A stretch of DNA of 64,000 nt from Methylosinus trichosporium OB3b (GTDB lineage: Bacteria; Pseudomonadota; Alphaproteobacteria; Rhizobiales; Beijerinckiaceae): contig NZ_CP023738.1 in the NCBI RefSeq assembly GCF_002752655.1, positions 62,001 through 126,000 of the forward strand, given 5' to 3'. The notes beneath the pieces are model-generated. The model searched no databases. It was not told the origin of the DNA and saw only the letters and a list, made by a program, of their open reading frames with translations. Positions 3-39,868 of this stretch are shown here, piece by piece. Position 1 is the first letter of the stretch. Every line of letters starts with the position of its first letter. The translations under genes were made by a program, and so were the position numbers.

Positions 3-2960
3 AAGGCGGGGCGCGATCCGGACGGCGGCAAGGTCGCCTTGATGCTGCACAGCTTCGTGCATCCCGACGGCGATCACGCGCGCGCCGTGATCCGCGAGCC
101 CTTCCTCGATTATGTGCGCAATTCGGTGGATGCGCAGCGCCATGGCTCGGAGGAGGGGCGGGCCATGTCCGAGCGCCAGCGCGCGCAGATCGCCGATTAC
201 GCCTTCGAGCGCTATGTCCGCTCGGCGGCGCTGTTCGGCTCGCCGTCCGAGTGCCGCGACATGCTGGAGCGCGCCGCCGCGACCGGCGTCGACGAGATCG
301 CCTGCCTCATCGATTTCGGCGTCGACGAGGATCTCGTGCTGCAATCGCTCGAGCACCTCGACGCGCTGCGGCCGCAACGCGCGCGGCGCCCGGCTCCAGC
401 CGCCGCCGCGGCTGTCGACGAACCCATCGCCATCATCGGCATGAGCGGACGTTTCGCCGGCGCCGGCGATCTGGACCGGTTCTGGCGGGCGATCCGCGAC
501 GGCGAGGAGCTGCTGTCGCCGCCCCCGCCTGAGCGCGGCGGCGCCGGCCTGCCGCCGCGCGGCGGCTATCTCGCCGATGTCGAGGGCTTCGACGCCGCGC
601 TGTTCGGACTGGCGCCCGCCGAGGCGGCGGCGATGGACCCGCATCAGCGTCTCTTTCTCGAGGAGACGTGGAGCGCGCTCGAGAACGCCGGCCTGCGTCC
701 GAGCGCGCTCCGGGGCAGCCGAACGGGCGTGTTCGCCGCCGCCTATTCCACCGGCTATGAGGGCTTGCTGCGGGCGAAGGGCGAAGCGCTCGACGGGCTC
801 GCGGCGGTCGGCGCCGCGCTCTCCATGGTCCCCAACCGCGCCTCCTTTCTGTTCGATTTCACCGGGCCGAGCGAGGCGGTCAACGCCGCCTGCGCCAGCG
901 GCCTTCTCGCCGTGCATCGCGCCGCCGCGGCGCTGCGCGCCGGCGAATGCGACATGGCGCTCGCCGGCGGCGTCAGCCTGCTGCTCGCGCCGGAGGAGAC
1001 GGCGGCGCTGGCGCGGCTCGGCGTGCTCTCGTCCGAGGGCGTCTGCCGCGCTTTCGAGGAGGGGGCGAATGGGCAGGCGCGCGGCGAAGGCGTCGGCGTC
1101 GTGGTGCTGAAGCGCTTGGCGGACGCCGAGCGCGACGGCGATTTCATCCACGCCGTGCTGCGCGGCTCGGCGGTCAATCACGCCGGCGCCCGCTCCGGCT
1201 CCGTCACTCTTCCGAACCCGCGTCTTCAAGCCGCCTGCATGGCCGAGGCGGTGCGCCGCTCCGGGCTCGCCGGCGCCGATATCGATTACATCGAGGCCCA
1301 TGGCGCCGGCTCCAAGGCCGGCGACATGGCCGAGGTCAGCGCCTTCGCGCAGGCCTTCGACGCGCTGGAGCGGACAGGCGCGCCCTGCGTCGTCGGCAGC
1401 GTGAAGCCGCTCATCGGCAGCCTCGACGCGGCGGGCGGCGTCGCGGGGCTGATGAAGGCCATATTGGCGCTGCGCTGCGCCGTCCTGCCCGGCCTGCCGC
1501 GCCGGGTCGCGGGTCGTCCGATCGAGGCGGACCTCCGCCTTCGTTTCGTGGACGAAGCCAGCCCCTGGCCGACCGCGCCCGGCCGGCGCCGCGCGGCGAG
1601 CGTCCACGCCTATGGGCTCGGCGGGACCAACGCCCATCTCGTGCTCGAGGAAGCGCCCGCGCGCGCCGAGCCGGCGGCGCCCGCCCCGCAGCCGATCCGT
1701 ATATCGGCGCGCAGCGAAGAGGGGCTGCGCGCGACGATGGCCCGGCTCCTCGCCTTCATCGACGCCAAATCGCCGTCTCTCGCCGACATCGCCGTCACCC
1801 TCGCGGAGGGGCGCGACTCCTTCCCCTGCCCCTGGTCGATGAACGCGCGCGACCTCGATCATCTCAGCGAGGCGATGCGCGGCTTCCTCTCGGGCGGACC
1901 CGCGCCGGAGCCGGCCGTTGGCGCGCCGACCTCGGGGCGACGCATTCCCATGCCCGGACTGATTTTCGAGCGCGCGGCTTCGAGCAGCGAGCCTGAAGGC
2001 TCGCGGCCCAGGAACGCCCTCGGACCGCGAGCCTTCAGGCTCGCCCCGGAAACTTTTCTTTCATCGACTCCCGCCGGCAGCGTCGTCGGGACCTTCTACG
2101 ACGCCGTCTCTCGCGTCGAGGAGCGCGAGGGCGACATCTTCCTCACCCTCGCGCCTTTGCCCGAAATCGTCCCCGGCTTCTCCTGGCGGCGCACCTTTCA
2201 AGACCCGGACCGCCATCCGGCCCATTGGGCGATGGTGCAGGATGCGCAGCGGCAGATGCGCGAGGTCCTGTTCGCCGAGGTGGATTTCTCGCGCGTCGCC
2301 CGCGCGCTCGATTTCGGCTGCGGCGTCGGATCGGATCTCGTCGCGCTGGCGCGCCGCCGTCCCGGGCTCGAGGGCGTCGGCTACACCATCTCCGCCCGGC
2401 AGGCGCGCATCGCCGCGCGCCGCGTCGCCGCCGCCGGGCTCGAGGATCGCGTCGCCATCCATCATCGCGACAGCGCGAAGGACCCTTTCCCCGGCCTGTT
2501 CGATCTCGTCTTCGGCTTCGAGGTCGGCCATCACATCGCCGACAAGCCGAGCCTCTTCGGCAATATTTCGGGCCATCTCGCGGAGGAGGGCTGGCTCGTC
2601 CTCGCCGATTGCGCCTCGAGCACTTTGGCGCCGATCGTCCTGCCGGAGGTCGGCTCCTATACGAGCCCCAAGGCGGATTATGCCGAGCTGCTCGCCGCGC
2701 AGAATCTCGAGATCGAGGTCTGTGTCGACGTCTCCGCCGAGATCGCCAATTTTCTGCACGACCCCGGCCTCGAGGAGATGCTGGCGCAGGAGGCGGGCGG
2801 CGATGCGGCGGCGCTCAACGCCGCCGTGCAGCGCTCCTGGGACGGCTTCGGCAAGGCGCTGGCGAGCGGGCTCGTCTCCTATCTCCTCATCACCGCGCGC
2901 AAGCGCAGCGGCGCGTCCGGTCTCGTGACGACCAACCGGCGGCAATTGGGACTCGCATGA
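3..2960 (+). CDS. trans-AT PKS, 5'-partial: luciferase-like monooxygenase - KS0 - methyltransferase
   Basis: The frame is open to the window edge, so the true start lies upstream. The first ~120 residues match the C-terminal part of FMN-dependent luciferase-like monooxygenase domains of natural-product synthases (IDFGVDEDLVLQSLEHLDAL). A KS follows at about nt 423-1660. Its nucleophile Cys is codon 891-893 (AACASG) and the first His (EAHGAG) is present, but the usual K-x-x-I-G-H reads KPLIGS, with Ser at 1419-1421. By family rule this is a non-elongating KS0. A class I SAM methyltransferase (DFGCGVGSD near nt 2310) fills about nt 2070-2910. There is no AT and no ACP; the next gene starts with an ACP and overlaps this one by ATGA. 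In trans-AT systems KS0-MT-ACP units often O-methylate the chain; that function is inferred here. An in-frame palindromic element lies in the KS-MT linker (1987-2044). Confidence 0.9.
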   Translation, partial: KAGRDPDGGKVALMLHSFVHPDGDHARAVIREPFLDYVRNSVDAQRHGSEEGRAMSERQRAQIADYAFERYVRSAALFGSPSECRDMLERAAATGVDEIACLIDFGVDEDLVLQSLEHLDALRPQRARRPAPAAAAAVDEPIAIIGMSGRFAGAGDLDRFWRAIRDGEELLSPPPPERGGAGLPPRGGYLADVEGFDAALFGLAPAEAAAMDPHQRLFLEETWSALENAGLRPSALRGSRTGVFAAAYSTGYEGLLRAKGEALDGLAAVGAALSMVPNRASFLFDFTGPSEAVNAACASGLLAVHRAAAALRAGECDMALAGGVSLLLAPEETAALARLGVLSSEGVCRAFEEGANGQARGEGVGVVVLKRLADAERDGDFIHAVLRGSAVNHAGARSGSVTLPNPRLQAACMAEAVRRSGLAGADIDYIEAHGAGSKAGDMAEVSAFAQAFDALERTGAPCVVGSVKPLIGSLDAAGGVAGLMKAILALRCAVLPGLPRRVAGRPIEADLRLRFVDEASPWPTAPGRRRAASVHAYGLGGTNAHLVLEEAPARAEPAAPAPQPIRISARSEEGLRATMARLLAFIDAKSPSLADIAVTLAEGRDSFPCPWSMNARDLDHLSEAMRGFLSGGPAPEPAVGAPTSGRRIPMPGLIFERAASSSEPEGSRPRNALGPRAFRLAPETFLSSTPAGSVVGTFYDAVSRVEEREGDIFLTLAPLPEIVPGFSWRRTFQDPDRHPAHWAMVQDAQRQMREVLFAEVDFSRVARALDFGCGVGSDLVALARRRPGLEGVGYTISARQARIAARRVAAAGLEDRVAIHHRDSAKDPFPGLFDLVFGFEVGHHIADKPSLFGNISGHLAEEGWLVLADCASSTLAPIVLPEVGSYTSPKADYAELLAAQNLEIEVCVDVSAEIANFLHDPGLEEMLAQEAGGDAAALNAAVQRSWDGFGKALASGLVSYLLITARKRSGASGLVTTNRRQLGLA
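1987..2044. repeat. In-frame palindromic element, family A (KS-MT linker)
   Basis: A 58-bp inverted repeat begins GCGAGCCTGAAGGCTCGCGG and ends with its near reverse complement. Related copies lie at 23315-23361, 39686-39739 and 45517-45586. Here it is translated in frame as part of the linker between the KS and the MT, giving a Pro/Arg-rich stretch. Confidence 0.8.
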
Positions 2961-5900: not shown

Positions 5901-8900
5901 CATCCGGCGCGCTGATCCTCTATGGCGCCGCGGAGCGGCCGGCGCCCGAGCATCTGCTCGCCTTGCTGAAGGCTCTCGCCGCCGATGGGCCGGCGCAGAT
6001 CGAGCTGCGCATCGCCGTCGCCCCGATGCGGCGCGTCGACGGCCGAGAGCGCGCGGTCGATCCGGCCGGCGCCGTGCTCGAAGGCCTCGCCAAGGCGGCC
6101 GGGCGCGAGCATCCCGGCTGGACAATGATCATCCTCGATGTCGACGCGCTGGAGCCGAGCCGCGAGCTATTGCTCGCGACGCCGGCCGAGGCGAGCGGCG
6201 AGCCCGTGGCGCTGCGCGGCGGGCGCCGATACGCCCGGCGCCTCTCTCCTGTGGAGTCCCTGGGAGCGCAGGCCTCCGGCCTGCGAGAAGGCGGCGCCTA
6301 TCTCATCACCGGCGGAATGGGCCGCATCGGTCGTGAAATCGCGCGCCATCTCGCCGAACATTGGCGGGGAAAGCTCGTCCTCGTCGGTCGCCGGCCCCTC
6401 GACGCCGAGCGCGGCGCCTTTCTGGAGAGCCTGCGCCGCCTCGGCGCCGAAGCCGATTATCACGCGCTCGACATCGCCGAGCCTTCAGCGCTCGACCCCG
6501 TCATCGCCGCGATGAAGGCGCGTTTCGGCGCCGTGCATGGCGTCATCCAGGCGGCTGTCGATCCGTTGTTCGCGCGCATTGCGGAGACCGGCGCGGCGGA
6601 CTTCGCCGCGGCTCTGCGCCCGAAGGTCGCGGGGCTGCGCGAGATCGCGCGCGCGACGCGGAACGAGACGCTGGATTTTCTCGCCGTCTTCTCGTCGATC
6701 GGCGCCTATGCGGCCTTTCCGGGCAATGTCGGACAGGCGAGCTATTGCGCCGCCTGCTGTTTCGAGGAGGCCTTCGCGGCGGAGCTGAGCGCGGCCGGGC
6801 GGCCCGTCCGGCTCATCCAATGGGGCCTCTGGCGCCATGACGCCTTCGCCGGCGACGGCGTGGCGCGGCTCGCCCGCCAGGGCGTCGAGGCGATGGCTCC
6901 GGCCGAGGCGGTGCGCGCCTTCGAGCGCATCGTCGGCGGAGCGGAGAACCGCATCGTCCATGCGGCGCTCGGCGACGCGGTCTGGCAGGCCATGGGTGCG
7001 CCTGCCGCGCCGGGTGCGGCCTTCGCCGCGGCCGCGGAGGCCGCGCGCGCGGCGTCTTCGGGGGCGGTCGGGAGCATCGCTTCGATCGAGGCCGTCGACG
7101 CCTATGGCCGTCATGCGGCGCGCCGCCGACTGCAGGAGCGCGGCGTTCTCGCCGCGGGCGAGCCGGCGCCCGCGGCCGAAGATCTCGGCCGCCGTCTCGG
7201 CGCGCTGCCGCGGCATGCGCGGCTCGTCGCCGCCCTCGCCGAACTGCTCGCGCGCTGCGGGGAGACGGCGCCCGACCGCGCGGCGCTGCTCGCGCTCGAG
7301 CCGCGCCTGCGCGACTCGCTCGATCTGCTCGACCATTGCGTCGCCGCTCTGCCGGATGTGGTCGCCGGCGAGCGCCAAGGTCCGGACGTCCTCTTTCCCG
7401 AGGGCTCGATGCGGCTCGTCGAGGCGATCCATCGCGACCAGCCCGTGCTCGCCGCCTGCAATGTCGTGATGGCGCGCGCGGCGCAAGCGAGCGGGAGCCT
7501 GCGCATTGTCGAGATCGGCGCCGGCGCCGGCGCCACCACCCGAGCCGTGCTCGATGCGCTCGGCGACGCGCCTTTCGACTATTCGTTCACCGATGTCTCG
7601 GCGGCTTTCGTGAAGCGCGCGCGCGGCCTCTTCGCCGATCCGCGCCTGCGCTTCGGCGTGCTCGACATCGAGCGCGATCCCGGCTCCCAGGGTTTTGCGG
7701 CGGGCGGCTTCGATCTCGTCCTCGCCACCAATGTGCTCCATGCGACGCGCGACATCGCCGAGAGCCTTCGCCACGCGTCCTCGCTGCTGAAGCCGCAAGG
7801 GCTGCTGCTGCTCGATGAGATGACGCGCGCCGAGGATTTCGCGACGCTCACCTTCGGCCTGCTAGACGGCTGGTGGCGCGCCGAGGATGCGGCGATCCGG
7901 CTGCCGCACAGTCCGCTGCTCGATGTCGCCGGCTGGCGGCGCGCCCTCGAGGCGGCCGGCCTCGCGCATGTCGTCGCCGCGCCGGCGCCGGGATTCAATG
8001 CGAGCGCCAGCCCGCAGACCGTGCTGCTCGCCGAAAAGCCGGCGGCCCCGTCGCCGGCGCGCGCCGCTCCGGCTCGTGCGAGCGAGGGAAGCGCCGAGGA
8101 TTTTATCCGCGCAATGGTCGCCGCCGGGCTCGACATGGCGGCGGAGGCGATCGATCCGGAGCGACCCTTCGGCGAGATCGGCGTCGATTCGATCGTCGCA
8201 CCGCAGATCACGGAAGATATCAACCGCGCAGCGGGGATCGAGCTCAGGGCGACCGATCTCTACAATTTCCCCAATGTCCGCCGGCTCGCGGCGCATATCG
8301 CCGAGCGCTTCCCGCAAGTGAGCTTTTGTCACCCCGGCGAGGAAGTGAACCAGCTACGATCGAGCGCGACTCCTTCTCCCATAGGGAGAAGGTGGCCCGG
8401 CGAAGCCGGGTCGGATGAGGGGAACGCCGGCGCGAACATCGGCGAGAAAGAACCCCCTCACCCGGCCGCTCCGCGGCCACCCTCTCCCTTTGGGCTACGG
8501 GATTCACGGAAACGCTTTGGCTGTTGCGATGGCGTATCCGGCGAGCATGGAGGCGAGGCGGTTCCATCCGTCTCGCATCGTCTTGGGGCCGGGCGGCTTG
8601 TAGTAGCAGTTCCAGCCTCCCAAACGGGCTGTGATCCAAGCGAGCCATGCGAGCGAGCCCTTCTCATGCGGGTTCTTCTGCCGTTCCGTCTTGCCCTCCA
8701 AGGTCTTGCCGATCGCCTCGAGCGGCTCGACCAGGGCCTCGTCGACGACGTCGCCACAGGAGCGCGGGCCGCCGTCGCGCGCGTCGACCAGTTGAATGAT
8801 GCGAGCCGCCGCTCCGAGGGCCACCGCCGAGAGCCGCATCAACCGCTCGGCGTCGACGATCTGGCTGTCCTCGAGCGCGAGCCCGTCGCTTTTGAGGGTG

Positions 8901-10285
8901 CGGAACAATTGCTCGATCCGCCAGCGCAAGCGATAGCAACGCACGATCTCGCGCGCCTGTTCGGCGGTTTCGGCCGCATGGGTGGTCAGGAGCCGCCACA
9001 GCAGCGAAGCGACGCCTTCCGGCGGCTCGATCTCGCGCGCCTCCACCAGCGTCAGCTCGACAGCCGGCGCGCCCGTCTTTTCCTTCGCGGAGAGGGAGGC
9101 CGGGGCGAGGAGGCGGACGCGGACCGCGCGCAGCTCGACCCTGGCGAGGCGCCCTTTGTCGCCCGGCCCGCGCGGCGCGACCTTGGTCATTGTCGTCGTC
9201 AGCGGCGCGGCCGCGGCGGCCGCCTCGAAGAGAGAGCCGCCTTCGATACGGCGATCCTGGGCGGCGCGCACGACGAGATGGACGCCCTCGGGACGCCGCG
9301 CGAAAAGCTGGAAGATGTCGCTCTCGCGGTCGCCGACGACGGTGACTTCGGCGGCCGCGCCGAGCTGCTCTGCGGCGCTCGCGCAGCCTTCGAGCCAGCG
9401 CGCCGATTCCTTGTCCTCGAAAGCGCGGCCGCGCCGCGCCGGCGCCTTCGTCTGCGGACGCGTCCAGATCCGCGCGTCGACGAGGCCGACTACGGCCTCG
9501 TCATCGGCGTCTATGGCCAGCACCGGATGGATGAAGAAGCCAGGATCGCATCCATTGCCGGCGGGCCCCAGGCCGCGACGCTTGGCCGAGCGGCCGGCGA
9601 AATTGATCTCGCTCGTATCCTGTGCGGCCACCACCCGGCGACCGGCGCAGCGCTCCGCGGTGCGCGCGCCCAGCGTCTCCATGATCGCCTCGACCGAGGC
9701 GAAGCCGGACGACAGGAAGCGATGGGCGCGCATCTCGCCGCTGCGCGAGGCCCCGACCTTACGCAAGGTCAGCGACCCCGTCGCCGCGATCTGCTCCATC
9801 AGCCAGTCGCCGCTGCGCTCGACACGAATGTCGCCGACCCCAAACCCCATGACCCGCCTCCGATCCGATTCGCTCGGACCTGTGAAGCGCAAATGCAACG
9901 CTTTGGGAATCGCTTCCGTGAACTCCGTAGCCCTTTGGGAGAGGGGCGCGCCAGTGCTTGCAAGAGATTGGCGACGGCGCCATCGCCATCATCGGCATGG
10001 CCGGGCGTTTCCCCGACGCGCGCGATCTCGACGCCTTCTGGGACAATATCGCCGCTGCGCGCTGCTCCGTGCGCGAGATCGACCGTTTCGACATCGCGCC
10101 CTTTTTCGACGCGACGCGTGGCCGGCCCGGAAAGACCTACGCCAAATGGGCGGCGACGCTGCCGGATCATGACCGTTTCGATCCGCTGTTCTTCGCCATC
10201 TCGCCCGCCGAGGCGGAAGCGATGGACCCGCAGCAGCGCGTGCTGCTCGAGGAGGCCTGGCACGCGCTCGAGGACGCCGGCCTGA
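2957..10285 (+). CDS. trans-AT PKS, 5' half of a megasynthase split by IS4: ACP-KS-DH-KR-MT-ACP
   Basis: ATG 2957 overlaps the previous stop (ATGA). Domains: ACP (Ser codon 3113, GLNSL); KS with a full Cys-His-His set (Cys 3758, EAHGTGT, VGH); a DH-like fold at about nt 4975-5720 whose motif reads H-x3-G but has His where Pro is expected, with a D-x3-Q second motif; KR (TGGMGRIG near 6305) with Tyr kept but Cys in place of the usual Asn (YCAAC); C-methyltransferase (EIGAGAG near 7511); ACP (Ser 8189, GVDS). PKS sequence ends at nt 8494, where an IS4-family element is inserted. Translation then continues through the element without a stop to 10285, adding about 600 meaningless residues. Before insertion the gene ran on to 18813. 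The present product is probably a truncated synthase with a junk tail. Two REP-like elements lie in its linkers. Confidence 0.85.
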   Translation: MISYQQKLRNMAARSEAPGREHSRVLRLLAETLGVAPQSVSPDAPFAELGLNSLLGVRFLDAVNRAFDLRLGVEALFAHRTAAALARHIETLAPRPAIVAAPEPAPLRDDDIAVIGMAGRFPGAPDVAAFWSLLAEGRSAVGAAPADRRPAFGDEIRAGFLEGVAQFDAAFFGISPREAAAMDPCHRLFLEEAWRAFENAGLSAERLAGGAVGVFVGASGSGYEALLDADSKSAQSYGLTGNLASMIAARVAYALDLKGPSLVVDTACSSSLVAVALACDALRRGEIDLALAGGVALFLDPLAFDAMRRAGMLSPSGACRAFDAASDGIAVGEAAAAVVLKPLRRALADGDRIDAVIKATGTNQDGRSNGVTAPNPQAQTDLMRAVHRRAGVAPETITFVEAHGTGTPLGDPIEVAALREALGPRDPEAAPCWLGSAKASVGHTAEAAGIVGLIKTILCLRHGELPASAHFSALNPKIDVGRSGLSVLTARRPWLAASGAPRRGAVSAFGLSGTNAHAVLEEAPALDRARPTPAPTLLLLSARDAEALARKVADLAAWLRGPGADAALVDVGATLARGRTHFAHRLALIAATPAEAAERLAAGDYRIAIADGAGAAPASNRGDLDAFAAQYLSGAAPEWPTLWPEGRRALDLPGYPFAPTEHWAVRPPSTTESGLRVRLRPDDPLVRDHIVDGAAILHAAVFLDLACRAGEAIFGAAPRGLRDIAWERTIAVPESGIELRIDTAPAGVDVAANLRPQGGEVAARCRLTRAAAPAPSRLDIAASKARADLHMDRGALVGLDRGAARLGPSFAGLDALWLGEDVALGRIDNLEIEPGRLLPLRLSDAIIQTAAALLARADGPAPALRYPVAVAAIDLHAPLPRQASILARRAGPDQIDVTVADDQGAPCLHWSGLTLRRAGAPAPVARAFRPFFAEAPAALLPRRRLDAAIGGPAFAAAFADLSPLAADPAEPREIAELVRRLPSGALILYGAAERPAPEHLLALLKALAADGPAQIELRIAVAPMRRVDGRERAVDPAGAVLEGLAKAAGREHPGWTMIILDVDALEPSRELLLATPAEASGEPVALRGGRRYARRLSPVESLGAQASGLREGGAYLITGGMGRIGREIARHLAEHWRGKLVLVGRRPLDAERGAFLESLRRLGAEADYHALDIAEPSALDPVIAAMKARFGAVHGVIQAAVDPLFARIAETGAADFAAALRPKVAGLREIARATRNETLDFLAVFSSIGAYAAFPGNVGQASYCAACCFEEAFAAELSAAGRPVRLIQWGLWRHDAFAGDGVARLARQGVEAMAPAEAVRAFERIVGGAENRIVHAALGDAVWQAMGAPAAPGAAFAAAAEAARAASSGAVGSIASIEAVDAYGRHAARRRLQERGVLAAGEPAPAAEDLGRRLGALPRHARLVAALAELLARCGETAPDRAALLALEPRLRDSLDLLDHCVAALPDVVAGERQGPDVLFPEGSMRLVEAIHRDQPVLAACNVVMARAAQASGSLRIVEIGAGAGATTRAVLDALGDAPFDYSFTDVSAAFVKRARGLFADPRLRFGVLDIERDPGSQGFAAGGFDLVLATNVLHATRDIAESLRHASSLLKPQGLLLLDEMTRAEDFATLTFGLLDGWWRAEDAAIRLPHSPLLDVAGWRRALEAAGLAHVVAAPAPGFNASASPQTVLLAEKPAAPSPARAAPARASEGSAEDFIRAMVAAGLDMAAEAIDPERPFGEIGVDSIVAPQITEDINRAAGIELRATDLYNFPNVRRLAAHIAERFPQVSFCHPGEEVNQLRSSATPSPIGRRWPGEAGSDEGNAGANIGEKEPPHPAAPRPPSPFGLRDSRKRFGCCDGVSGEHGGEAVPSVSHRLGAGRLVVAVPASQTGCDPSEPCERALLMRVLLPFRLALQGLADRLERLDQGLVDDVATGARAAVARVDQLNDASRRSEGHRREPHQPLGVDDLAVLEREPVAFEGAEQLLDPPAQAIATHDLARLFGGFGRMGGQEPPQQRSDAFRRLDLARLHQRQLDSRRARLFLRGEGGRGEEADADRAQLDPGEAPFVARPARRDLGHCRRQRRGRGGRLEERAAFDTAILGGAHDEMDALGTPREKLEDVALAVADDGDFGGRAELLCGARAAFEPARRFLVLESAAAPRRRLRLRTRPDPRVDEADYGLVIGVYGQHRMDEEARIASIAGGPQAATLGRAAGEIDLARILCGHHPATGAALRGARAQRLHDRLDRGEAGRQEAMGAHLAAARGPDLTQGQRPRRRDLLHQPVAAALDTNVADPKPHDPPPIRFARTCEAQMQRFGNRFRELRSPLGEGRASACKRLATAPSPSSAWPGVSPTRAISTPSGTISPLRAAPCARSTVSTSRPFSTRRVAGPERPTPNGRRRCRIMTVSIRCSSPSRPPRRKRWTRSSACCSRRPGTRSRTPA
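6261..6287. repeat. In-frame palindromic element, family B (before KR)
   Basis: A short hairpin GCAGGCCTCCGGCCTGC (6268-6284) lies in the linker just before the KR Rossmann motif. It is translated in frame as GAQASGLREG. It resembles a small dispersed palindrome but no second copy was found in this window, so its repeat status is inferred. Confidence 0.45.
8372..8494. repeat. In-frame REP-like element, family C, interrupted by the IS
   Basis: The sequence from CCTTCTCCC to CCCTTTGGG is a compound of three hairpins. It matches in reverse complement the element at 22028-22157. It sits directly after the ACP at 8100-8310 and continues as GAGAGGGG at 9940 beyond the IS4 element. It was in frame with the PKS before the insertion. 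Confidence 0.8.
8486..8494. repeat. Left 9-bp target duplication of IS4 element
   Basis: CCCTTTGGG immediately left of the IS; the identical sequence follows the right end at 9931-9939. The target is itself the tip of a palindrome. Confidence 0.9.
8495..9930. mobile_element. IS4-family insertion sequence, 1436 bp
   Basis: The ends are imperfect inverted repeats: left CTACGGGATTCACGGAA, right (reverse complement) CTACGGAGTTCACGGAA. It is flanked by identical 9-base duplications CCCTTTGGG. One transposase gene on the - strand fills the element. Removing the IS plus one duplication (1445 bp) joins frame 2 of the upstream PKS to frame 1 of the downstream PKS with no stop, so insertion split a previously continuous gene. 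Clean ends and a perfect duplication indicate a fairly recent event. Confidence 0.92.
8504..9850 (-). CDS. IS4-family transposase
   Basis: About 448 residues if started at ATG 9850, which has GGAGG 7 bases upstream; an earlier in-frame ATG is at 9898. DDE elements are visible: AAQDTSEINF (first Asp), VVGDRESDIF (second Asp) and the YRLRWRIEQLFRTLKSDG block with the catalytic Glu (Y-[2]-R-[3]-E-[6]-K signature of IS4 enzymes). Length is usual for the family. The reading frame is intact, so the element may be active. Confidence 0.92.
   Translation of the reverse strand: MGFGVGDIRVERSGDWLMEQIAATGSLTLRKVGASRSGEMRAHRFLSSGFASVEAIMETLGARTAERCAGRRVVAAQDTSEINFAGRSAKRRGLGPAGNGCDPGFFIHPVLAIDADDEAVVGLVDARIWTRPQTKAPARRGRAFEDKESARWLEGCASAAEQLGAAAEVTVVGDRESDIFQLFARRPEGVHLVVRAAQDRRIEGGSLFEAAAAAAPLTTTMTKVAPRGPGDKGRLARVELRAVRVRLLAPASLSAKEKTGAPAVELTLVEAREIEPPEGVASLLWRLLTTHAAETAEQAREIVRCYRLRWRIEQLFRTLKSDGLALEDSQIVDAERLMRLSAVALGAAARIIQLVDARDGGPRSCGDVVDEALVEPLEAIGKTLEGKTERQKNPHEKGSLAWLAWITARLGGWNCYYKPPGPKTMRDGWNRLASMLAGYAIATAKAFP
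9931..9939. repeat. Right 9-bp target duplication of IS4 element
   Basis: CCCTTTGGG directly after the right end of the IS; identical to 8486-8494. Confidence 0.9.
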
Positions 10286-20137: not shown

Positions 20138-20148
20138 AGAGAGTCGCG

Positions 20149-23100
20149 ATGAGCGAGAGAGAACAAATGCGACGGCTCGTCCTGACCCTCGTCGCGGAAG
20201 GCGCTCTGCCGCCCGAGGCGGCGATGACTCTCATTCGCCGCATGGGCGAGGCGCCGGCGCCCGCCTCCCGCGCTGTCGCGGTCGTCGGCATGGCGGGGCG
20301 CTTCGCCGGCGCCGCCGATCTCGAGGCCTATTGGCGCCTCATCGAGGCGGGCGAGAACAGCCTCGTCGACATGCCGGCGCGGCGCTGGCCGAATGTGAAA
20401 GGCGCGCGCCGCAAGGGCGGCTTCCTGCCCGACGAGGATCGTTTCGACCCGCTGTTCTTCCGCATCTCGCCGACCGAGGCGGCGATGATGGATCCGCAGC
20501 AGCGCATTTTCCTCGAGACGGCGTTTCACGCGATCGAGGACGCGGGTCTCGCGCCCGCGAGCCTCTCCGGCGCGCGCTGCGGCGTCTTCGTCGGCGCCGG
20601 CGCCGGGGATTACGCGCAACGCTTCCGGGACGCCGGGCTGCAATCCAATCCGCTCGGGCTGATGGGCAATGTGGCCTCCATTCTCGCGGCGCGGATCAGC
20701 TATTTCCTCGATCTCAAAGGGCCGAGCATCGCGCTCGACACCGCCTGCTCCTCCTCGCTCGTCGCCGTGCATCTCGCTTGCGAGAGCCTCTTCAGCGGCG
20801 GCTGCGACATGGCGCTCGCCGGCGGCGTCGCTGTGATCAGCACCGAGCAGTTCATCGACGCCATGCTGGAAGGCGGCATGCTGTCGCCGAGCGATCGTTG
20901 CGCCAGCTTCGACGCGCGCGCCGACGGCTTCGTCTGTGGCGAGGGCGTCGGCGCCGTGCTGCTGAAGCGGCTCGACGACGCTTTGCGCGACGGCGATTTC
21001 ATCCATGGAATCATTCGCGCGACCGGCGTCAATCAGGACGGGCGCACCAATGGCGTCACCGCGCCGAGCGCGCCGGCGCAAGCCATGCTCGAAACGGAGG
21101 TCTACGCCCGCGCCGGCGTCGATCCGCGCAGCGTCTCTTATGTCGAGACCCATGGCACCGGCACGCCGCTCGGCGATCCGATCGAGATCGAGGCGCTGAC
21201 CGCGGCCTTTCGCAAATCCACCGACGCCGCTGGCTTCTGCGCGCTCGGCGCGGTGAAGGCCAATATCGGCCATACGCTGACCGCGGCGGGGATCGCGGGA
21301 CTCTTGAAGCTGCTGCTGATGCTGCGTCATCGCCGCATTCCGCCGCTCGCGGGATTCGGCGAGGTCAATCCGCGCATCGATCTTCCCGCCAGCCCCTTCT
21401 ATGCGCCGATCGCGGCGACGGACTGGGTCGCGGACGGCCCGCTTCGCGCCGCCGTCAGCTCCTTCGGCTTCAGCGGCACCAACGCCCATGCGGTGGTGGA
21501 GGAAGCGCCGGGGCGCGAGCGCGGCGAGGCGCCGGAGGGGCCATTCTGCTTTCCGCTCTCGGCGCCTTCGCCGGAGGCTCTGCGCCAACGGCTCGCGGAT
21601 CTTCTCGCGGCGCTGCCGACCGTGGGCGCCCTAGGCGACATCGCCTTTACGCTGTCGGTCGGGCGCGACCATCATCGGCATCGCGTCGCGCTTCTCGCGG
21701 GGGACGAGCCGGCGCTGCGCGGGGCGTTGCGGGCGGCGCTCGCGGAGGAGCGGCGCCCCGACGTCTTCCGCGGCGAGGCGCGCGCGGAGGGCGGGGGCGC
21801 GCTCGGCGCTCTCGCAGCGCGCATGCTGCGCAGCAATCCCGAGGAAGCGGACGCCGCGACGCTCGCCGAGCTCTATTGCTGCGGCGTCGATCTCGCATGG
21901 CGCGATCTGCCCGGCCTCACCGGCTGCCGCCGCATTCCTTTGCCGACCACTCCGTTCGAGCGCGAGGCCTATGGCGTCGCGCTCGGCTCCGCCGACGCCG
22001 CTGCGCCAAAGTCGCCAGAGGGGGCGGAACCCTCTCCCTTGGGGAGAGCGCAGCAGCGGAGCGGCCGGGTGAGGGGTTTCCCGCTCGCCGATTTTCACGC
22101 GGGGCTCCCCTCATCCGACCCCGCTGCGCGGGGCCACCTTCTCCCTAAGGGAGAAGGAATCGCGCTCGATCGTGTCGGGTCGTCTTCTGATGACGAGGAT
22201 GGTTTCGCCGATCTTCGCGCGGCGCTCCCGCGCCAGAATGCGCCGGCGCAGCGCGAGGCGGCCGATGCCTTTCGCTCGGTCGAGGCTTTCGGCCGGCGCG
22301 CGCTCGCCGCCGCCTATGACGCCATGGGCCTCTTCGCCAAGCCGGCGCATACGCCGGCCGGGCTGCGCAAGGCCCTTGGAGTGGTCGCCGCCAAGCAGCG
22401 TCTGCACGAGGCTCTGCTCGATATTCTCCTGCGCGACGGCGCGCTGCGACGCGATGGCGATTTGCTGCGTCCCGACCCCGCCCACAGAACGCCGGACGAC
22501 CTCGAAGCCGAGAAAGAGCGGATCATCCGCGCGGCGCCGGAGCTGGCGCCGTTTCTGACGCTGCTCGAGACTTGCGTCGCCGCTCTGCCGAAGCTGCTCT
22601 CGGGCGCCGTCACCGCGACCGAGGTGCTGTTTCCGGCCGGACGCATGGACCTCGTCGAGCCGATCTATCGCGGCCATCCGCTCGCCGAACATTTCAACCG
22701 TCTGCTCGCCGAGGCGGCGGCGACGCTGGTTCGTCCACGGACGGCGCCGCTGCGGCTGCTCGAGATCGGCGCCGGCACCGGCGGCGCCACGGCGGGCGTT
22801 GTCGAAGCGCTCCACACGCTCGGCGTGGTCGCGGAATATTCTTACACGGACGTGTCGCTCGGCTTCGTCGAGCACGGGCGCCGGCGCTTTGCCGCGCCAA
22901 GCATGCGCTTTTCTGTTTTCGACATCGAGAAAGCGCCGGCCGCGCAGGGTTTTCCACCCGGCTGCTTCGACATCGTCATCGCCTCCAATGTGCTGCATGC
23001 GACGCGCGACATCGGCGCGACGCTGGCCCATGTCGCCGAGCTGCTCGCGCCGGGCGGCGTGCTGCTGCTGAACGAGGTGACGGCGCTGCAGGACTTCGCG

Positions 23101-26100
23101 ACGATGACCTTCGGCCTCACGGACGGCTGGTGGGCTTTCGAGGATGCGGAAAAGCGCATCGCCAATGCGCCGCTGCTCGATGTCGCCGGCTGGCGCGCGG
23201 CGCTCGCGGCGGCGGGCTTTGCGCACGTCGACGCCTTCGGCCTGCCCGGGGAGGCGCAGGATCGGTTCAGCCAGAGCGTCATCGCCGCGCGTTTATCGTC
23301 CAGCGTTCGCGAGGGCGAGCCTAAAGGCTCGCGGTCCGAGCCCGCCCCTGGACCGCTCGCGTCCGACGCCGGCGATCATGTGGAAGAGATCGTGACGCGC
23401 GAGGTCGCCGCCGCGTTGAGCCTGTCGCCGGCGCGGATCGACCCACGCGGCCGCTTCATGGACTACGGCGTCGATTCGATTCTCGGCGTGCGCGTCGTGG
23501 CCCGGCTGAACGAAGCGTTCGGCCTCGACATGCGGCCGACCGTGCTGTTCGACCATCCGAGCATCCAGGATCTCTCGGCTTATCTGCGCGCGGTTTCGCC
23601 CCCTCCCTCACCCTCCGCCGCTTCGCGGGAGAGTGAGGCGGCCGAGATTGCGCGAACTCTCGACGACGGGCCGAATCCGCTCCCTCTCCCGCGGAACGGG
23701 GGAGAGTCGGGGAGGGGGCTCGAGCATCATCCTTCACGCGATGAGCGCATCGCCGTCATCGGCCTCTCGGCCCGCTTCGCCGATTGTCCCTCGCTCGAAG
23801 CCTTTCACGCGATGCTGCGCGCGGGGCGCAGCGCCATCGCCGATGTGCCGTCCGACCGCTGGCCGGCCGAAGCGGAAAACCTGCCCGAGGCGCTGCGCGA
23901 GCAGGCGGCCTTTCTGCTGAAGGGCGGCTTCCTCACCGACGCCGCCGATTTCGATCCGCTGTTTTTCCGCATGTCCGGCAAGGAGGCCGAGCTCACCGAC
24001 CCGCAGCATCGCGTCTTCCTCATCGAGGCCTGGCGGGCGCTGGAGCACGCGGGCTATGGCGAGCGCGAATTGGACGGGCGCCGCTGCGGCGTCTTCGTCG
24101 GCGCCCATGGCGGCGACTACACCCATCGCATGACCGAGGTCGGCGTTCTCCCCGAGGCCTTCGCCTTCATGGGCAACGCCGCCTCGATCCTCGCGGCGCG
24201 CATCGCCTATGTGCTCAACCTCAAAGGTCCGTGCCTTGCGGTCGACACCGCCTGCTCCTCGTCGCTGACCGCGATTCATCTCGCCTGCCGCAGCCTCGTC
24301 GAAGGCGAGTGCGACATGGCGCTAGCCGGCGGCGTGTTCCTCACCACGACGATGGGCTTCAATGTCGCGGCCGCCAAGGCCGGCATGTTGTCGCCAGTCG
24401 GCGCCTGCAAGACTTTCGACGCGGAGGCGGATGGCTTCGTCCCCGGCGAGGGCGCCGGCGTCGTCGTGCTGAAGCCCTACGCGCGCGCGCTCGCCGATGG
24501 CGATCATATCGAGGCGGTGATTCTGGCGAGCGCCATCAATCAGGATGGCCGCACCAATGGCATCACCGCGCCGAGCCCGGCGTCGCAAGCGGCGCTGGAG
24601 CGCGAGGTCTACGCCAAGGCCGGCGTCTCGCCGCGCGCCATCGGCTATGTGGAGGCGCATGGCACCGGCACGCCGCTCGGCGATCCGATCGAGATCGAGG
24701 GGCTGACCAGCGCCTTCCGCGGCTGGACCGCGGACAAGGGTTTTTGCGCCATCGGCTCGGTGAAAACCAATATCGGCCATGCGGCGCATGCCGCCGGCGT
24801 CGCCGGCTTTCTGAAGCTGGTTCTGTCGCTGCGCCATCGCGAGCTCTATCCCTCGCTGAATTTCGCGCGCGAAAATCCGCAGCTGCGGCTCGCCGAGACA
24901 CCCTTCGTGGTGAATACCGCGCTGCGGCCGTGGGAGAGCGAGGGCCCGCGCCTCGGCGCCGTCAGCGCCTTCGGCTTCAGCGGCACGAATGTGCATCTTC
25001 TGCTCGCCGAGGCCGAACCGCCTGCGCCCCGGCGCCACGAGGCCGAGCGGCGCCTCGTCGTTCTCTCGGCGCGCACGCCCGCGGCGCTGGCGCGGCGCCG
25101 GCGCGATCTGTCCGAATGGCTCGCGTCCGAAGCGCCGGCGCTCGCGGATGTGAGCCGCACGCTCATCGCCGGCCGGGCGCATTTCGAGCATCGCTGGGCG
25201 GCGGTGGTCTCGACCATCGGCGAGCTGCGCGCGGCGCTGGAGAATAGTCGTTTCGTCGATGCGACGAGCGGACGCTCCGCCCTGCTCGTCGCGGCGGCGT
25301 GGGATTATCTGGGCGGCGGAGAGATTGCGGCGGAGGCGGTTCCGACCGCGGCGCGGCGCATCGCTCTGCCGAGCTATCCTTTCGAGATGCAGCGCTATTG
25401 GCTCGACGCACCGGCGCCGGCGGCAACGCAGGCGCAGCCGGTCGGCTATTGGGCGCCGCTGTGGGAGGAGCGCGCCGCGGGCGCCGGCGCGCCGCCGCGC
25501 TCGCTCTGGCTGATCGCCGAGCCGACGCGAGCCGCCGACGCGCTGGCGCGCTCGCTCGAGCGCTGTGGACTCGCGGCGCGCCGGCTCGCCCCGGCGGAGG
25601 TCGATCGCATCGATGCGAGCGCGCCGCCGCAGGCGATCGTCCTCCTGCTCGACGCCGCTCCGAGCGACACATCGGCGCCGCCCGCCGAGCCCGGCCCGGT
25701 GGTCGCGCTGCTCCGGAGCTTCTTCTCCAGCCCGATCCCGCTGCTCGTCGTCCATCGCGGCGGCGCGGGCGAAGAATGCCTCGCCGCGCTGCGCCGCTCG
25801 GCGCGTTTCGACGGCGCTGAGGTCGATCTGCGGCTCTTGCGCATCGAGCCGGATGTGTCCGCCGCTTCGCTGGCGAAAGCCATCCTCGCCGAATGCGCGC
25901 GCCCCGCCGATGGCGAGACCGAGGCGGCGCTCGAAGCCGGCCGCCGGCTGGCGCGGCGCATGGCGCCGGTCGCGCCACCGGCCACGCCCTACGCGCCGCG
26001 GCGCGGCGCGCATATTCTGGTGACCGGCGGCGGCGGCGCGCTCGCGGCCCTGTTCGCGCGCCGGCTCGCAACCGATTGGGGCGTCCGGCTCACATTGCTG

Positions 26101-29100: not shown

Positions 29101-31074
29101 CATCTCCACGCGCTGCTCGCGGAGCCGGGCGCCGATGTCGGCGAGGTTTCGCCCGAATGCGCTTTTCTCATCGAGCGCCTGGAAGCGCTCGGCAAGGGCC
29201 GGCCAGCGCCGCGCACGCGGCTCGACGCGCTGTCCGTGACGCCGGCGGAGGCCGAGGCGGTGCTGGATGCAATCGCGACGCGTTTCGGCGCGGCGCTGAC
29301 GCAGGCCGAGATCGGCCGCTGCATCGATCTTCAGGCGGTCGGCGAGCTGATCGCCGAACGCGGCGCGCCGACTCCCCTTCTCGCCCAGGTTCCGCAGGGA
29401 AGGGAGGCGGCCGGCGTGTCGCGATCTTTCGATGAAGCGCGGGGCCACCCCCCTCTCCCGCAAAGTGGGGGAGGGTCGGGGAGGGGGCGCGAGCCGCGCG
29501 ACGTCCTCGCCATCGTGCGCAATCATCTCGCGCAGGCGCTCTATCTCGAGGAGAATGAGATCGACATTTCCGCGCCCTTCTCCGAGCTGGGACTCGATTC
29601 GATCCTCGCGGTGGAGCTGGCCAAGAGCCTCAATGACGCGCTCGGAACGCGGCTTCAGGCGACACGGCTCTACGACCATGCCGATGCGGCGGGCCTCGCG
29701 TCCTATCTCGAGGCGGAGCTCGCGCGCGGCGGCGAGGAGGATGCGGCCGAGCCGATCGGCGAGACGCTCGCTTTTCTGATGGAGCGCCTCGCCGAGAGCG
29801 GCGCGGGCGCGCTCACGCCGCGCAGCCGCATCGACGAGATCGCGCTCGACGCCGCGCGCGCGCGCGCCGCTCTTAACGCCGTGAACGCGCGGTTCCGATG
29901 CGATCTCTCAGAGAGCGATATCGGCCGCTGCGTCGATCTTCGCGATCTCGCGCGCCGCATCGAAGAGCGCGCCGGCGCCGCGCCCGATCCGCTGGTTCTC
30001 GTCAGGACCGGCTCGGGGCGGCCGAGCTTCTGGGCGCATGGGGGAACGGGCGATGTGAATTGGGTCGGCGAGCTCGCCCGCGCCCTCCCCGAGGGGGAGC
30101 CGATCTATGGTCTCGAAGCCGCCGGGCTCGATGGCGAAACCCGGCCGCTCGACAGCGTCGAGGCGATGGCGGACCATTATCTCGCCGCCATTCGCCGCGC
30201 GCAGCCCATGGGGCCCTATCGGCTCGGCGGCTATTCGGCGGGCGGCGCCATCGCTTTCGAGATGGCGCGACGGCTCGTCACGCGCGGCGAGAGCGTCGAG
30301 CGTCTCGTGCTGCTCGACGCCAATGCGCCGGGGCGGCCGGCGATCGAGGAGATGCAGGCGGATTTCGGTCCCGGCTATGTCTATGTCGTCGTCGCCAATT
30401 GGCTGGGGACGCGCTGGGGCATGCGCACGCCGCTGGCGCTGTCCGATCTGGGCGGGCTCGACAAGAGCGCCATGCTCGATCTCGTCGTCGCGCATCTCTA
30501 TTCGGCCGCCGAGCCGCCGATCCCGGTCGCCGAGCTGCGACGGCGGCTGGAGACTTTCGACAGCTGCGGCCGCGCCATCGGCGACGCGCTGCGAGCCTAT
30601 CGGCCGCAGCCGCTGGCGGCGCCGATGGAGGTCGTGCTGTTCGAGTGCCGCGACGGCATGGCCGGCGGCGCCAATCCGCTCGGCCTGCCCGACACCGCCG
30701 TCGCGCGCGATTATCGCGACGGCTGGGACGCGCTCTTCGCCTCGCCGATCCGGCGCGTTCCCTTGCCCTGCGATCATTTCGGCGTGCTGCGCGCGGAGCC
30801 GCTGCGCCGCATCGGCGAGGCGCTCGCGGCGCCCGACCCCGTGGAATCCGTGGTGCTCGCTCTGCTGCGCGAGGTGCTGCCGGACGTTCCGCCCGCAGCG
30901 CTCGCTCTCGATCGCTCGATGAGCGAGCTCGGCGCCAATTCCATGGATCGCGTCGAGGTGGCGACGCGGGCGATGGAGACGCTGCACATCGTCGTTCCCC
31001 ATGCGGAGCTGACGGGGCTCGCGACCATCGGCGCGCTGATCGACGTGCTGCGGCGGCGGCTCGCGCATGGCTAA
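20149..31074 (+). CDS. trans-AT PKS: KS-MT-ACP / KS-KR-ACP / KS-(ACP-ACPlike)x2-TE-ACP
   Basis: 3641 residues. ATG 20149 has GAAGAGAG upstream. Domains: KS1 (Cys200); C-methyltransferase (EIGAGTGGAT near nt 22762); ACP (Ser1110); KS2 (Cys1369); KR (TGGGGALA, last Gly replaced by Ala; YALAN kept); ACP (Ser2245, GFDS); KS3 (Cys2474, EAHCTATELGDP); ACP (Ser2950); ACP-like unit without the Ser; ACP (Ser3151); a second ACP-like unit; thioesterase (GYSAGG, Ser3363; Asp in LLDANAPG; His in CDHFGV); and, after the TE, an ACP with LGANSMDR (Ser3598) resembling donor ACPs of beta-branching cassettes. All three KSs keep Cys-His-His. Tandem ACPs before the TE plus the downstream HMG-type genes predict beta-branching in the last module. 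Three REP-like elements are read in frame. The end overlaps the next ATG by 8 bases. Confidence 0.92.
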   Translation: MSEREQMRRLVLTLVAEGALPPEAAMTLIRRMGEAPAPASRAVAVVGMAGRFAGAADLEAYWRLIEAGENSLVDMPARRWPNVKGARRKGGFLPDEDRFDPLFFRISPTEAAMMDPQQRIFLETAFHAIEDAGLAPASLSGARCGVFVGAGAGDYAQRFRDAGLQSNPLGLMGNVASILAARISYFLDLKGPSIALDTACSSSLVAVHLACESLFSGGCDMALAGGVAVISTEQFIDAMLEGGMLSPSDRCASFDARADGFVCGEGVGAVLLKRLDDALRDGDFIHGIIRATGVNQDGRTNGVTAPSAPAQAMLETEVYARAGVDPRSVSYVETHGTGTPLGDPIEIEALTAAFRKSTDAAGFCALGAVKANIGHTLTAAGIAGLLKLLLMLRHRRIPPLAGFGEVNPRIDLPASPFYAPIAATDWVADGPLRAAVSSFGFSGTNAHAVVEEAPGRERGEAPEGPFCFPLSAPSPEALRQRLADLLAALPTVGALGDIAFTLSVGRDHHRHRVALLAGDEPALRGALRAALAEERRPDVFRGEARAEGGGALGALAARMLRSNPEEADAATLAELYCCGVDLAWRDLPGLTGCRRIPLPTTPFEREAYGVALGSADAAAPKSPEGAEPSPLGRAQQRSGRVRGFPLADFHAGLPSSDPAARGHLLPKGEGIALDRVGSSSDDEDGFADLRAALPRQNAPAQREAADAFRSVEAFGRRALAAAYDAMGLFAKPAHTPAGLRKALGVVAAKQRLHEALLDILLRDGALRRDGDLLRPDPAHRTPDDLEAEKERIIRAAPELAPFLTLLETCVAALPKLLSGAVTATEVLFPAGRMDLVEPIYRGHPLAEHFNRLLAEAAATLVRPRTAPLRLLEIGAGTGGATAGVVEALHTLGVVAEYSYTDVSLGFVEHGRRRFAAPSMRFSVFDIEKAPAAQGFPPGCFDIVIASNVLHATRDIGATLAHVAELLAPGGVLLLNEVTALQDFATMTFGLTDGWWAFEDAEKRIANAPLLDVAGWRAALAAAGFAHVDAFGLPGEAQDRFSQSVIAARLSSSVREGEPKGSRSEPAPGPLASDAGDHVEEIVTREVAAALSLSPARIDPRGRFMDYGVDSILGVRVVARLNEAFGLDMRPTVLFDHPSIQDLSAYLRAVSPPPSPSAASRESEAAEIARTLDDGPNPLPLPRNGGESGRGLEHHPSRDERIAVIGLSARFADCPSLEAFHAMLRAGRSAIADVPSDRWPAEAENLPEALREQAAFLLKGGFLTDAADFDPLFFRMSGKEAELTDPQHRVFLIEAWRALEHAGYGERELDGRRCGVFVGAHGGDYTHRMTEVGVLPEAFAFMGNAASILAARIAYVLNLKGPCLAVDTACSSSLTAIHLACRSLVEGECDMALAGGVFLTTTMGFNVAAAKAGMLSPVGACKTFDAEADGFVPGEGAGVVVLKPYARALADGDHIEAVILASAINQDGRTNGITAPSPASQAALEREVYAKAGVSPRAIGYVEAHGTGTPLGDPIEIEGLTSAFRGWTADKGFCAIGSVKTNIGHAAHAAGVAGFLKLVLSLRHRELYPSLNFARENPQLRLAETPFVVNTALRPWESEGPRLGAVSAFGFSGTNVHLLLAEAEPPAPRRHEAERRLVVLSARTPAALARRRRDLSEWLASEAPALADVSRTLIAGRAHFEHRWAAVVSTIGELRAALENSRFVDATSGRSALLVAAAWDYLGGGEIAAEAVPTAARRIALPSYPFEMQRYWLDAPAPAATQAQPVGYWAPLWEERAAGAGAPPRSLWLIAEPTRAADALARSLERCGLAARRLAPAEVDRIDASAPPQAIVLLLDAAPSDTSAPPAEPGPVVALLRSFFSSPIPLLVVHRGGAGEECLAALRRSARFDGAEVDLRLLRIEPDVSAASLAKAILAECARPADGETEAALEAGRRLARRMAPVAPPATPYAPRRGAHILVTGGGGALAALFARRLATDWGVRLTLLGRSAPSDAVLALPGAHYRRADVTDERGLSNALAEARAEYGPIAGVLHLAGAPGGAPLRNASHADFSACLAPKTVGTLLLDRLLAEDPLDFFVIFSSLAGELGDFGQGSYALANSFCDRFAAWRDDERRSGARRGVTRALGWPLWREGRGVLSAEGERIYLASAGMPYLESEQGWRAFLDALALPHPQLAVLPLSAQAAQALFAPTHRAPPPARVPALPLSPAGDAREAIRRQLTATVAELMKIDASRIGGGVGLADYGFDSIALKNFAARIGADYGVTLSPAVFFSRGTIDALADHLVETEPKAVAARHGGAAPEPEPERVAAAPIAPSRAPIAVIGMSGRFPGSPDLGAFWRNLEQGVDLVGPLPEGRRLAGGDAARIVGGFLEEVDRFDAAFFKISPREASFLDPQHRLAIEEVWRCAEDAGVRMSALEGRSVGVFFGQQVNEYGALAQNRDAARAQLALGNIATMLPNRISFLFDLRGPSEAIDTACSSSLVAVHRAVRALQDGECEMAFAGGVSLILSAEGIVSTAELGVLSAQGRCRSFDAGADGYVKGEGVGVVLLKPLERALADNDCVHGVILGSAENHGGRGHSLTAPNGTAQTALVVGALRRAGVSSDTIGYVEAHCTATELGDPVEVLALKDAFAATAGAASPRCGLGTVKTNIGHLEPASGIAGLIKTLLALEHGVLPATLHFERLNPLIELSQSPFFIVDRAQPWPALPDAQGAALPRRAGVSSFGLGGSNAHVVLEEAARAAPTPQTRAELLVVSARERDALVASLRRLAAVAAHCSVADMAHTLATGREAMDVRAALLLTPGEAPAAALAAAAEAVAEGRARANLWVGTVSRSRPEASAQTDRFLADLVAAGQIERIAALWVGGAALPAGLTRGLRIFLPGYPFAGARFWCDRSPERAAKAPPGPAPAPQSAPRVSLETVREIVLRQLAAALYLDVAQIDERAPLADLGLDSILAVELAASLNKQLGTDLQAMRLYDHADVAGLATHLHALLAEPGADVGEVSPECAFLIERLEALGKGRPAPRTRLDALSVTPAEAEAVLDAIATRFGAALTQAEIGRCIDLQAVGELIAERGAPTPLLAQVPQGREAAGVSRSFDEARGHPPLPQSGGGSGRGREPRDVLAIVRNHLAQALYLEENEIDISAPFSELGLDSILAVELAKSLNDALGTRLQATRLYDHADAAGLASYLEAELARGGEEDAAEPIGETLAFLMERLAESGAGALTPRSRIDEIALDAARARAALNAVNARFRCDLSESDIGRCVDLRDLARRIEERAGAAPDPLVLVRTGSGRPSFWAHGGTGDVNWVGELARALPEGEPIYGLEAAGLDGETRPLDSVEAMADHYLAAIRRAQPMGPYRLGGYSAGGAIAFEMARRLVTRGESVERLVLLDANAPGRPAIEEMQADFGPGYVYVVVANWLGTRWGMRTPLALSDLGGLDKSAMLDLVVAHLYSAAEPPIPVAELRRRLETFDSCGRAIGDALRAYRPQPLAAPMEVVLFECRDGMAGGANPLGLPDTAVARDYRDGWDALFASPIRRVPLPCDHFGVLRAEPLRRIGEALAAPDPVESVVLALLREVLPDVPPAALALDRSMSELGANSMDRVEVATRAMETLHIVVPHAELTGLATIGALIDVLRRRLAHG
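22028..22157. repeat. In-frame REP-like element, family C (KS-MT linker)
   Basis: Runs from ACCCTCTCCC to GAGAAGG. The reverse complement aligns along its length with 8372-8494. Three hairpins are present. It is translated in frame between KS1 and the MT. Confidence 0.8.
23315..23361. repeat. In-frame palindromic element, family A (MT-ACP linker)
   Basis: GCGAGCCTAAAGGCTCGCGG with a decayed opposite arm CTGGACCGCTCGCG. It is related to 1987-2044 and read in frame between MT and ACP. Confidence 0.7.
23598..23719. repeat. In-frame REP-like element, family D (ACP-KS linker)
   Basis: Termini GCCCCCTCCC and GGGAGGGGGC are inverted; inner hairpins CTCCGCCGCTTCGCGGGAG and CCCTCTCCCGCG...GGGGGAGAG. 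The right part matches 29371-29488. Read in frame. Confidence 0.75.
29371..29488. repeat. In-frame REP-like element, family D (between tandem ACP units)
   Basis: Contains CCCTCTCCCGCAAAGTGGGGG and GTCGGGGAGGGGGCGCGAG, matching the right part of 23598-23719. It separates the first ACP/ACP-like unit from the second and is read in frame. Confidence 0.75.
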
Positions 31075-38162: not shown

Positions 38163-38183
38163 CGGAGCCTCTCCGCTCGCGTC

Positions 38184-39659: not shown

Positions 39660-39685
39660 TGGAGCCGGCTTGCTTCGAGACGCCG

Positions 39686-39739: not shown

Positions 39740-39868
39740 TCTTCGCAGGCTTTGAATCGGATGACGCGCGCCGCTTCGATCAGGCGTCGCGCCGCCACGT
39801 CGAGCCGTGTGGACGACCGAAGGCGTTCGGCGATACGGCGCGCTCACGCGACCGGCGCCGGGCCGCTC

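Follow-up and report, generated by a model that had tools for sequence, protein, structure and literature searches.

The 64,000-nt stretch of Methylosinus trichosporium OB3b DNA analysed here (NZ_CP023738.1, positions 62,001 to 126,000; hereafter the window) carries part of a polyketide synthase (PKS) gene cluster within whose coding sequence lie short palindromic elements resembling repetitive extragenic palindromic (REP) sequences. The window corresponds to C2:62001-126000 of the OB3b genome (G000; 4 contigs, 5.18 Mb), and its first 50 kb match plasmid pOB3b_01 of the same strain (NZ_CP119870.1) at 99-100%. The PKS cluster starts approximately 34 kb upstream of the window, the left 31 kb of which encodes PKS proteins with ketosynthase (KS), acyl carrier protein (ACP), ketoreductase (KR), dehydratase (DH), methyltransferase and thioesterase domains. 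The cluster is of the trans-AT type, its modules being without an acyltransferase (AT) domain (PF00698 was not listed for the open reading frames (ORFs) of the window in a Pfam search at E <= 1e-3 or 1e-5) and separate acyltransferase and FabD-type genes lying near the PKS genes.

Palindromic elements embedded in the PKS genes

A preliminary description of this DNA had proposed that six or seven palindromes are translated as PKS linkers. Comparing the cluster by blastn with a library of 311 OB3b chromosomal intergenic pieces, we found six places in the window, at 1967-2047 (B), 8350-8494 (A), 22022-22179 (A), 23302-23356 (B), 23600-23718 (C) and 29451-29487 (C), and three upstream of it, each matching 2 to 35 pieces. 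These window places are six of the seven palindromes described, which are confirmed as dispersed repeats of three families, A, B and C. The library was assembled from 155 pieces of 13 evenly spaced stretches and 156 pieces of loci retrieved by probing for A, B and C, and because it was partly probe-fetched it favours these families and missed a fourth, D. When it was enlarged with D and with PKS-derived copies, 12 places were found in the cluster (four B, two A, three C and three D), so that the set proved larger than first thought, with six further elements, D among them, upstream of the window. The elements and associated features of the window are as follows.

1980..2047, no strand: B element, an inverted REP doublet like those that form hairpins (REPINs), in the PKS orf1 linker that connects a KS-associated region with the methyltransferase (placed by blastn and Pfam limits)
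8350..8494, plus strand: main part of an A element lying at the orf2 end; its position between an ACP and the following KS rests on motifs and not on Pfam limits
8495..9930, minus strand: IS4-family insertion sequence (IS) inside the A element, with a DDE transposase gene at 8504-9850
9931..9960, plus strand: remaining right end of the A element, beyond the IS4-family insertion
22022..22179, minus strand: A element, in the orf4 linker that joins the first KS to the methyltransferase
23302..23356, no strand: B element whose right arm is eroded, in the orf4 linker from methyltransferase to ACP
23591..23725, plus strand: C element, in an ACP-to-KS linker of orf4
29364..29495, plus strand: C element, diverged, in a linker preceding an ACP of orf4
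39675..39745, no strand: B element, a dispersed copy between genes (predicted genes on both sides)
45478..45625, no strand: B element between genes (B match 45516-45586), within a longer inverted repeat
6261..6294, no strand: short palindrome just before a KR domain, not supported as a dispersed element

The last of these was the seventh candidate, which we rejected: its fold is weak (z -1.8), three homologues differ there by one residue, and no other exact copy of its core was present in the OB3b loci examined, no genome-wide search having been made. By contrast, folding of nine of the 12 embedded elements showed all nine to be more stable than letter shuffles of themselves (z -3 to -12; 30 mononucleotide shuffles each). 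Hairpins have nevertheless decayed in place, as the B element at 23315 (B23315) has lost its right arm and the C element at 29371 (C29371) has diverged. The two PKS copies of A are oppositely oriented, the three C copies all adjoin an ACP in the same orientation and the same frame, and the D copies are alike in sequence just beyond their arms.

All of the confirmed window elements lie in linkers. KS/methyltransferase linkers hold those at 1987 and 22028, a methyltransferase/ACP linker holds that at 23315, and ACP/KS linkers hold those at 8372 and 23598 as well as elements at upstream record positions 35930 and 41233 with 41340; the elements at 29371 and, upstream, at 26970 precede an ACP. The interdomain placement initially reported applies to the window sites but not throughout the cluster, given that two upstream B elements (38225 and 46770) separate the hot-dog halves of a dehydratase from each other and are not strictly interdomain. 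Five of the six window elements lie in continuous open frames with domains on both sides, and as judged from the translated sequence each of these appears to be a dispersed REP carried in frame within a real ORF. The claim that every element keeps the frame falls short only at 8372, where the frame cannot be judged because the A element is split by the IS4-family insertion. When seven insertion points were scored against homologues, all fell between the 1st and 14th percentile of local conservation.

Dispersal of the families and a probable transposase for family B

Genome-wide searches bear out the proposal that A and B are dispersed elements rather than parts of the PKS, since both are abundant and mostly intergenic. 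Family A is a composite of approximately 125-145 bp with two different palindromic halves; the search scored 40 of 167 candidates and gave at least 72 genome matches at E <= 1. Reading 28 chromosomal loci of this family placed 26 between genes and 2 close to a predicted gene start. Family B, an inverted REP doublet of approximately 60 bp, has at least 80 matches (40 of 196 candidates scored, both strands of each palindrome being counted). With at most one mismatch, the B unit pattern GCGAGCCTNNAGGCTCGCGGNC matched the genome 107 times in forward and 100 times in reverse orientation, compared to 0 and 0 for its reversed control, and many of the matches form plus/minus pairs 36-39 nt apart. We read 29 non-PKS B loci, representing 27 distinct sites: 25 fall between genes, 3 run 10-11 nt into the end of a gene and 1 is close to a predicted start. 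Family B is thus high in copy number, mainly extragenic and arranged in inverted doublets, as REPs and REPINs are. In the library comparison the A and B places of the cluster each matched 29 to 35 chromosomal intergenic pieces, and the C places only 3 and 2.

Family C (approximately 120 bp) has 19 matches in OB3b at E <= 1, 10 of them at E < 0.001, and its segment of the PKS protein, used as a query, gave numerous weak matches at the protein level across the genus (E from about 1e-10 to 1e-3). Family D consists of long inverted arms (GTCATGGCCGGGCTTGTCCCGGCCATCCAC) flanking a variable core; a search with its peptide recovered the chromosomal sites C1:3502148 and C1:1183405 and the three PKS sites in OB3b, and the peptide also occurs in 6 more of 30 genomes of the family.

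For family B a candidate transposase could be identified. The gene at C1:3004786 (locus L162) matches PF01797 and the NCBIfam model NF047646 (REP-associated tyrosine transposase, RAYT), the latter above cut-off, and is flanked on both sides by inverted B REPs (L162 1372-1395 and 2060-2086), the arrangement described for RAYT-REP units (PMC2817692). Because of this flanking pair, B is very probably the REP/REPIN family of the L162 RAYT, and it may well have been moved by that enzyme. PF01797 has 4 matches in the OB3b genome, and at these loci the A and C probes gave no flanking pair and one short C match. On another plasmid (L160 and L161, G000:C3:123037-124330), an IS200-like transposase match falls into two pieces, and a further gene resembling a transposase lies between these pieces or next to them.

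The IS4-family element that entered the A element at 8372 splits the PKS gene orf2 and is bordered by a 9-bp target duplication, CCCTTTGGG, at 8486-8494 and 9931-9939. It targets palindromes in three of its four full genomic copies, which lie within CTCTCC...GGAGAG, the fourth doing otherwise; two partial matches of 66-67% are also present. This recalls ISRm22, another member of the IS4 family reported within REPs (PMC1525189) and hence likewise located in palindromes, except that one of the OB3b targets lies inside a PKS gene.

Enrichment in the cluster and reuse of linkers

We compared the cluster with 13 chromosomal stretches totalling 260 kb, of which 224.7 kb is coding according to a home-made gene finder trained on the pOB3b_01 plasmid. 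The approximately 62.7 kb of PKS coding DNA holds 12 elements, compared to 2 in the sampled chromosomal coding DNA (P = 7e-7, conditional binomial test, the 12-site library including copies taken from the PKS), or 9 compared to 2 when chromosomal intergenic pieces alone serve as the library (P = 4e-5). Counting a third chromosomal copy, which is entirely contained in a predicted gene at 37 nt from the gene start, gives 12 versus 3 (P = 3e-6) and 9 versus 3 (P = 1e-4). The 13 stretches contain 29 repeat places in total, two of which lie within predicted genes (for a glycosyltransferase and an ELM1-like protein) at a depth of more than 60 nt. In one chromosomal gene a B element sits in frame just upstream of the glycosyltransferase domain (L189 2446-2518); in the ELM1-like gene, whose Pfam match falls in two stretches, an A element is in frame (L194 4108-4279).

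A family-free scan for strong inverted repeats agreed with this enrichment, yielding 5 in 63.3 kb of the cluster versus 2 in 201 kb of chromosomal genes. The same scan found none in 46.0 kb of PKS stretches on plasmid pOB3b_03 (C4), none in 39.0 kb of PKS stretches of the congener G001 and none in codon-shuffled controls, and repeats A-D were likewise not found in the PKS-bearing stretches of pOB3b_03. We had considered that other PKSs of the genus might carry such repeats, and rejected this idea for pOB3b_03 and for four PKS stretches of the congeners G001 and G004, none of which has any; the comparison for the two congeners used the OB3b repeat families, and the family-free scan covered G001 only.

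Alignment with homologous PKSs revealed the presence and absence at linkers that the preliminary description had led us to look for. Most of the homologues aligned have no element at the linkers compared: the orf1 B element (1980..2047) is absent in homologue L034, and none of the 19 homologues aligned with the upstream protein has its long D insert or its C+D insert. The closest homologue of orf4 among those listed, P0002 (69% identity, from a Joint Genome Institute metagenome contig), has B at 23315 with both arms, one of which is lost in OB3b, and C at 23598 and 29371, and its 22028 linker carries, at the protein level, a D-type peptide in place of the A element of OB3b. Because B23315, C23598 and C29371 are common to a homologue of 69% identity, they are old and the host frame has stayed open since. 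P0002 also has the C motif PPPSPSP at extra sites, which are only leads because this motif is short and proline-rich. The pattern singled out beforehand as speaking against dispersed elements, absence elsewhere in the genome combined with conservation in all orthologues, is not seen for A, B or D; C is the weakest case, being low in copy number in OB3b and shared with P0002.

Other lineages have filled the same positions differently. In P0010, P0020, L036 (labelled Acetobacteraceae) and L033 (labelled Asaia), the 23598 linker carries another inverted repeat, for which the L033 version has 112 genome matches in L033, 99 in L036 and 23 in L034 (labelled Nitrosovibrio), counts that include both strands and the locus itself, with 40 candidates scored per genome. 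L034 has half of an L033-type repeat in a later linker, and homologues of more than 4,000 residues from other lineages carry repeats of their own. These different repeats in matching linkers indicate that the linkers have been used more than once. A further palindrome occupies the 23315 linker at locus L031, from a metagenome-assembled genome of Bauldia; as a repeat dispersed in its own genome it was rejected, only the element itself having matched there, as would be expected if the assembly is incomplete or the repeat came from another source. Searching homologues with translated-repeat motifs, which are short and were chosen by hand, in part from sequences in this analysis, gave hits in 9 of 118 non-OB3b proteins of a first set (among 120 of 560 homologues) and in none of 107 newly listed proteins of a second (among 120 of 2355 homologues).

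Proposed origin of the embedded elements and relation to known systems

We propose, with a probability of roughly 0.8, that these palindromes belong to the non-autonomous mobile repeats of REP, bacterial interspersed mosaic element (BIME) or REPIN type and that they were inserted in the PKS genes and kept in poorly conserved linkers. Such elements would insert widely across the genome by transposition, copies that break the frame or the fold would be lost through purifying selection, and in-frame copies in poorly conserved spacers would survive as harmless translated spacers, tolerated almost like intergenic DNA, before decaying as ordinary coding sequence. The elements would thus have persisted in the PKS because they landed in an open frame within such spacers. 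At a later step, an IS4-family element would have entered one embedded element and split the host gene, an insertion that is itself observed.

Several points weigh against this proposal. C is low in copy number in OB3b, with 4 of its 10 matches at E < 0.001 inside the PKS cluster, and D was found by the protein-level search at only two chromosomal sites, compared to three in the PKS. Some of the three C sites, each of which is next to an ACP, may have arisen by module duplication. Both the PKS coding length and the chromosomal gene calls are approximate, and since sites in the same gene are not fully independent events, the P values given above are optimistic. The ends given for the palindromes are provisional, any target duplications of theirs hypothetical, and lengths in multiples of three are suggested by the open frames. 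Finally, because no elements occur in the other PKS stretches of this genome, a general tolerance of linkers for any insertion is not the whole story.

The most serious competitor holds that C, and perhaps D, spread within the cluster through duplication of ACP-linker units instead of by separate insertions. The uniform orientation and frame of the three C copies next to an ACP and the likeness of the D copies just beyond their arms are what this predicts; against it stand the weak C-like protein matches across the genus, the chromosomal C sites in OB3b and the opposite orientation of the two A copies, and we regard it as possible but doubtful. It is improbable that the whole cluster is a decaying pseudogene gathering repeats as intergenic DNA does. 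Aside from the split in orf2 caused by the IS4-family element, two single bases of NZ_CP119870.1 are absent from the window (at approximately 18786 and 18984) and thereby divide orf3 into three ORFs, a discrepancy that reflects either an assembly error or a real difference; moreover, the NZ_CP119870.1 gene table, which omits pseudogenes, is without any coding sequence over window positions 2961-8503, and neither orf1 nor one KS of orf3 showed the KS motif pattern used. Yet open frames of 8.9-11.7 kb persist with KS active-site motifs in orf2, orf3 and orf4, the frame around B23315, C23598 and C29371 has stayed open since these old elements arrived, and the homologues of more than 4,000 residues bear repeats of their own.

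We give slightly less credence still to the idea that the elements are kept for a function, either to slow ribosomes between domains through strong mRNA hairpins or to provide homologous joints at which modules are exchanged. The stable folds, at domain borders, of all nine elements that were folded, and the fact that lineages carry differing repeats in one and the same linker, would fit such a role, but the hairpins of B23315 and C29371 are decaying, most aligned homologues and the other PKS stretches of this genome do without an element, and an IS has used one of them as a target. Chance palindromes of a GC-rich, repetitive gene are a near-negligible explanation: 6261 fits it, codon-shuffled controls yield no such inverted repeats, and the intergenic pieces matched by A and B refute it for these families, if less so for C with its few matches. 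A broader extension of insertion into linkers, namely that trans-AT PKS linkers are a recurrent sink for the palindromic mobile repeats of the host lineage, with much linker sequence derived from mobile DNA and the repeats acting as DNA joints and IS landing sites that drive module exchange or loss, strikes us as unlikely, though less so than the pseudogene account.

Rickettsia palindromic elements are palindromes inserted in frame in protein genes. The OB3b elements share this property, a likeness of description, and they differ in belonging to a free-living, high-GC host and in being concentrated in one megasynthase cluster. The closest precedent is that of REP-decorated proteins, in which REPs or REP dimers (GTAG, CGTC) are translated inside ORFs and whose authors consider that insertions are possibly neutral in flexible linkers or loops (PMC3733652); intragenic REPs and tolerant linkers are therefore already known. 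The named examples there stress replication and repair genes with one or few elements per gene, and polyketides are not mentioned in the main text (PMC3733652), whereas 12 elements of four families occur here in one PKS cluster. The REPIN-RAYT system resembles B in its high copy number, inverted doublets and RAYT flanked by inverted REPs (PMC3116915, PMC2817692). REPINs are, however, described as extragenic, with 14 of 1,067 occurrences of the SBW25 16-mers overlapping genes (PMC3116915, PMC2817692), while B copies in OB3b are also intragenic, and a RAYT is assigned here for B only. Among the open-licence PMC papers listed in our searches we found no report of REPs in linkers of PKSs or nonribosomal peptide synthetases.

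As far as these searches show, two things are new: a single megasynthase cluster holds about a dozen elements from four families, and lineages differ in the repeats with which they have reused the same linkers. Together, these observations reveal a source for part of the highly variable linker sequence in a giant assembly-line enzyme, mark naturally tolerated insertion points of the kind sought by PKS engineers, and extend REP-decorated proteins from scattered cases to a cluster struck about a dozen times. They also expose a second-order risk, in that an embedded palindrome became an IS site and the gene was split.

Other repeats were noted in the right part of the window. An inverted repeat at 38174-38273, with arms CGCTCGCGTCGTCATTGCGAGGAGCG and CGTTGCTCGCAATGACGGCCCCGGCG, is a REP-like palindrome outside families A-D, and another at 55433-55505, with 31-nt arms that are 81% complementary, was assigned to none of the families. 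Two 300-nt stretches that are 91% alike and 659 nt apart (52137-53165) are located at an IS6 transposase gene, and a calcium-binding protein gene at 53510-55000 contains direct repeats spaced 219-246 nt.

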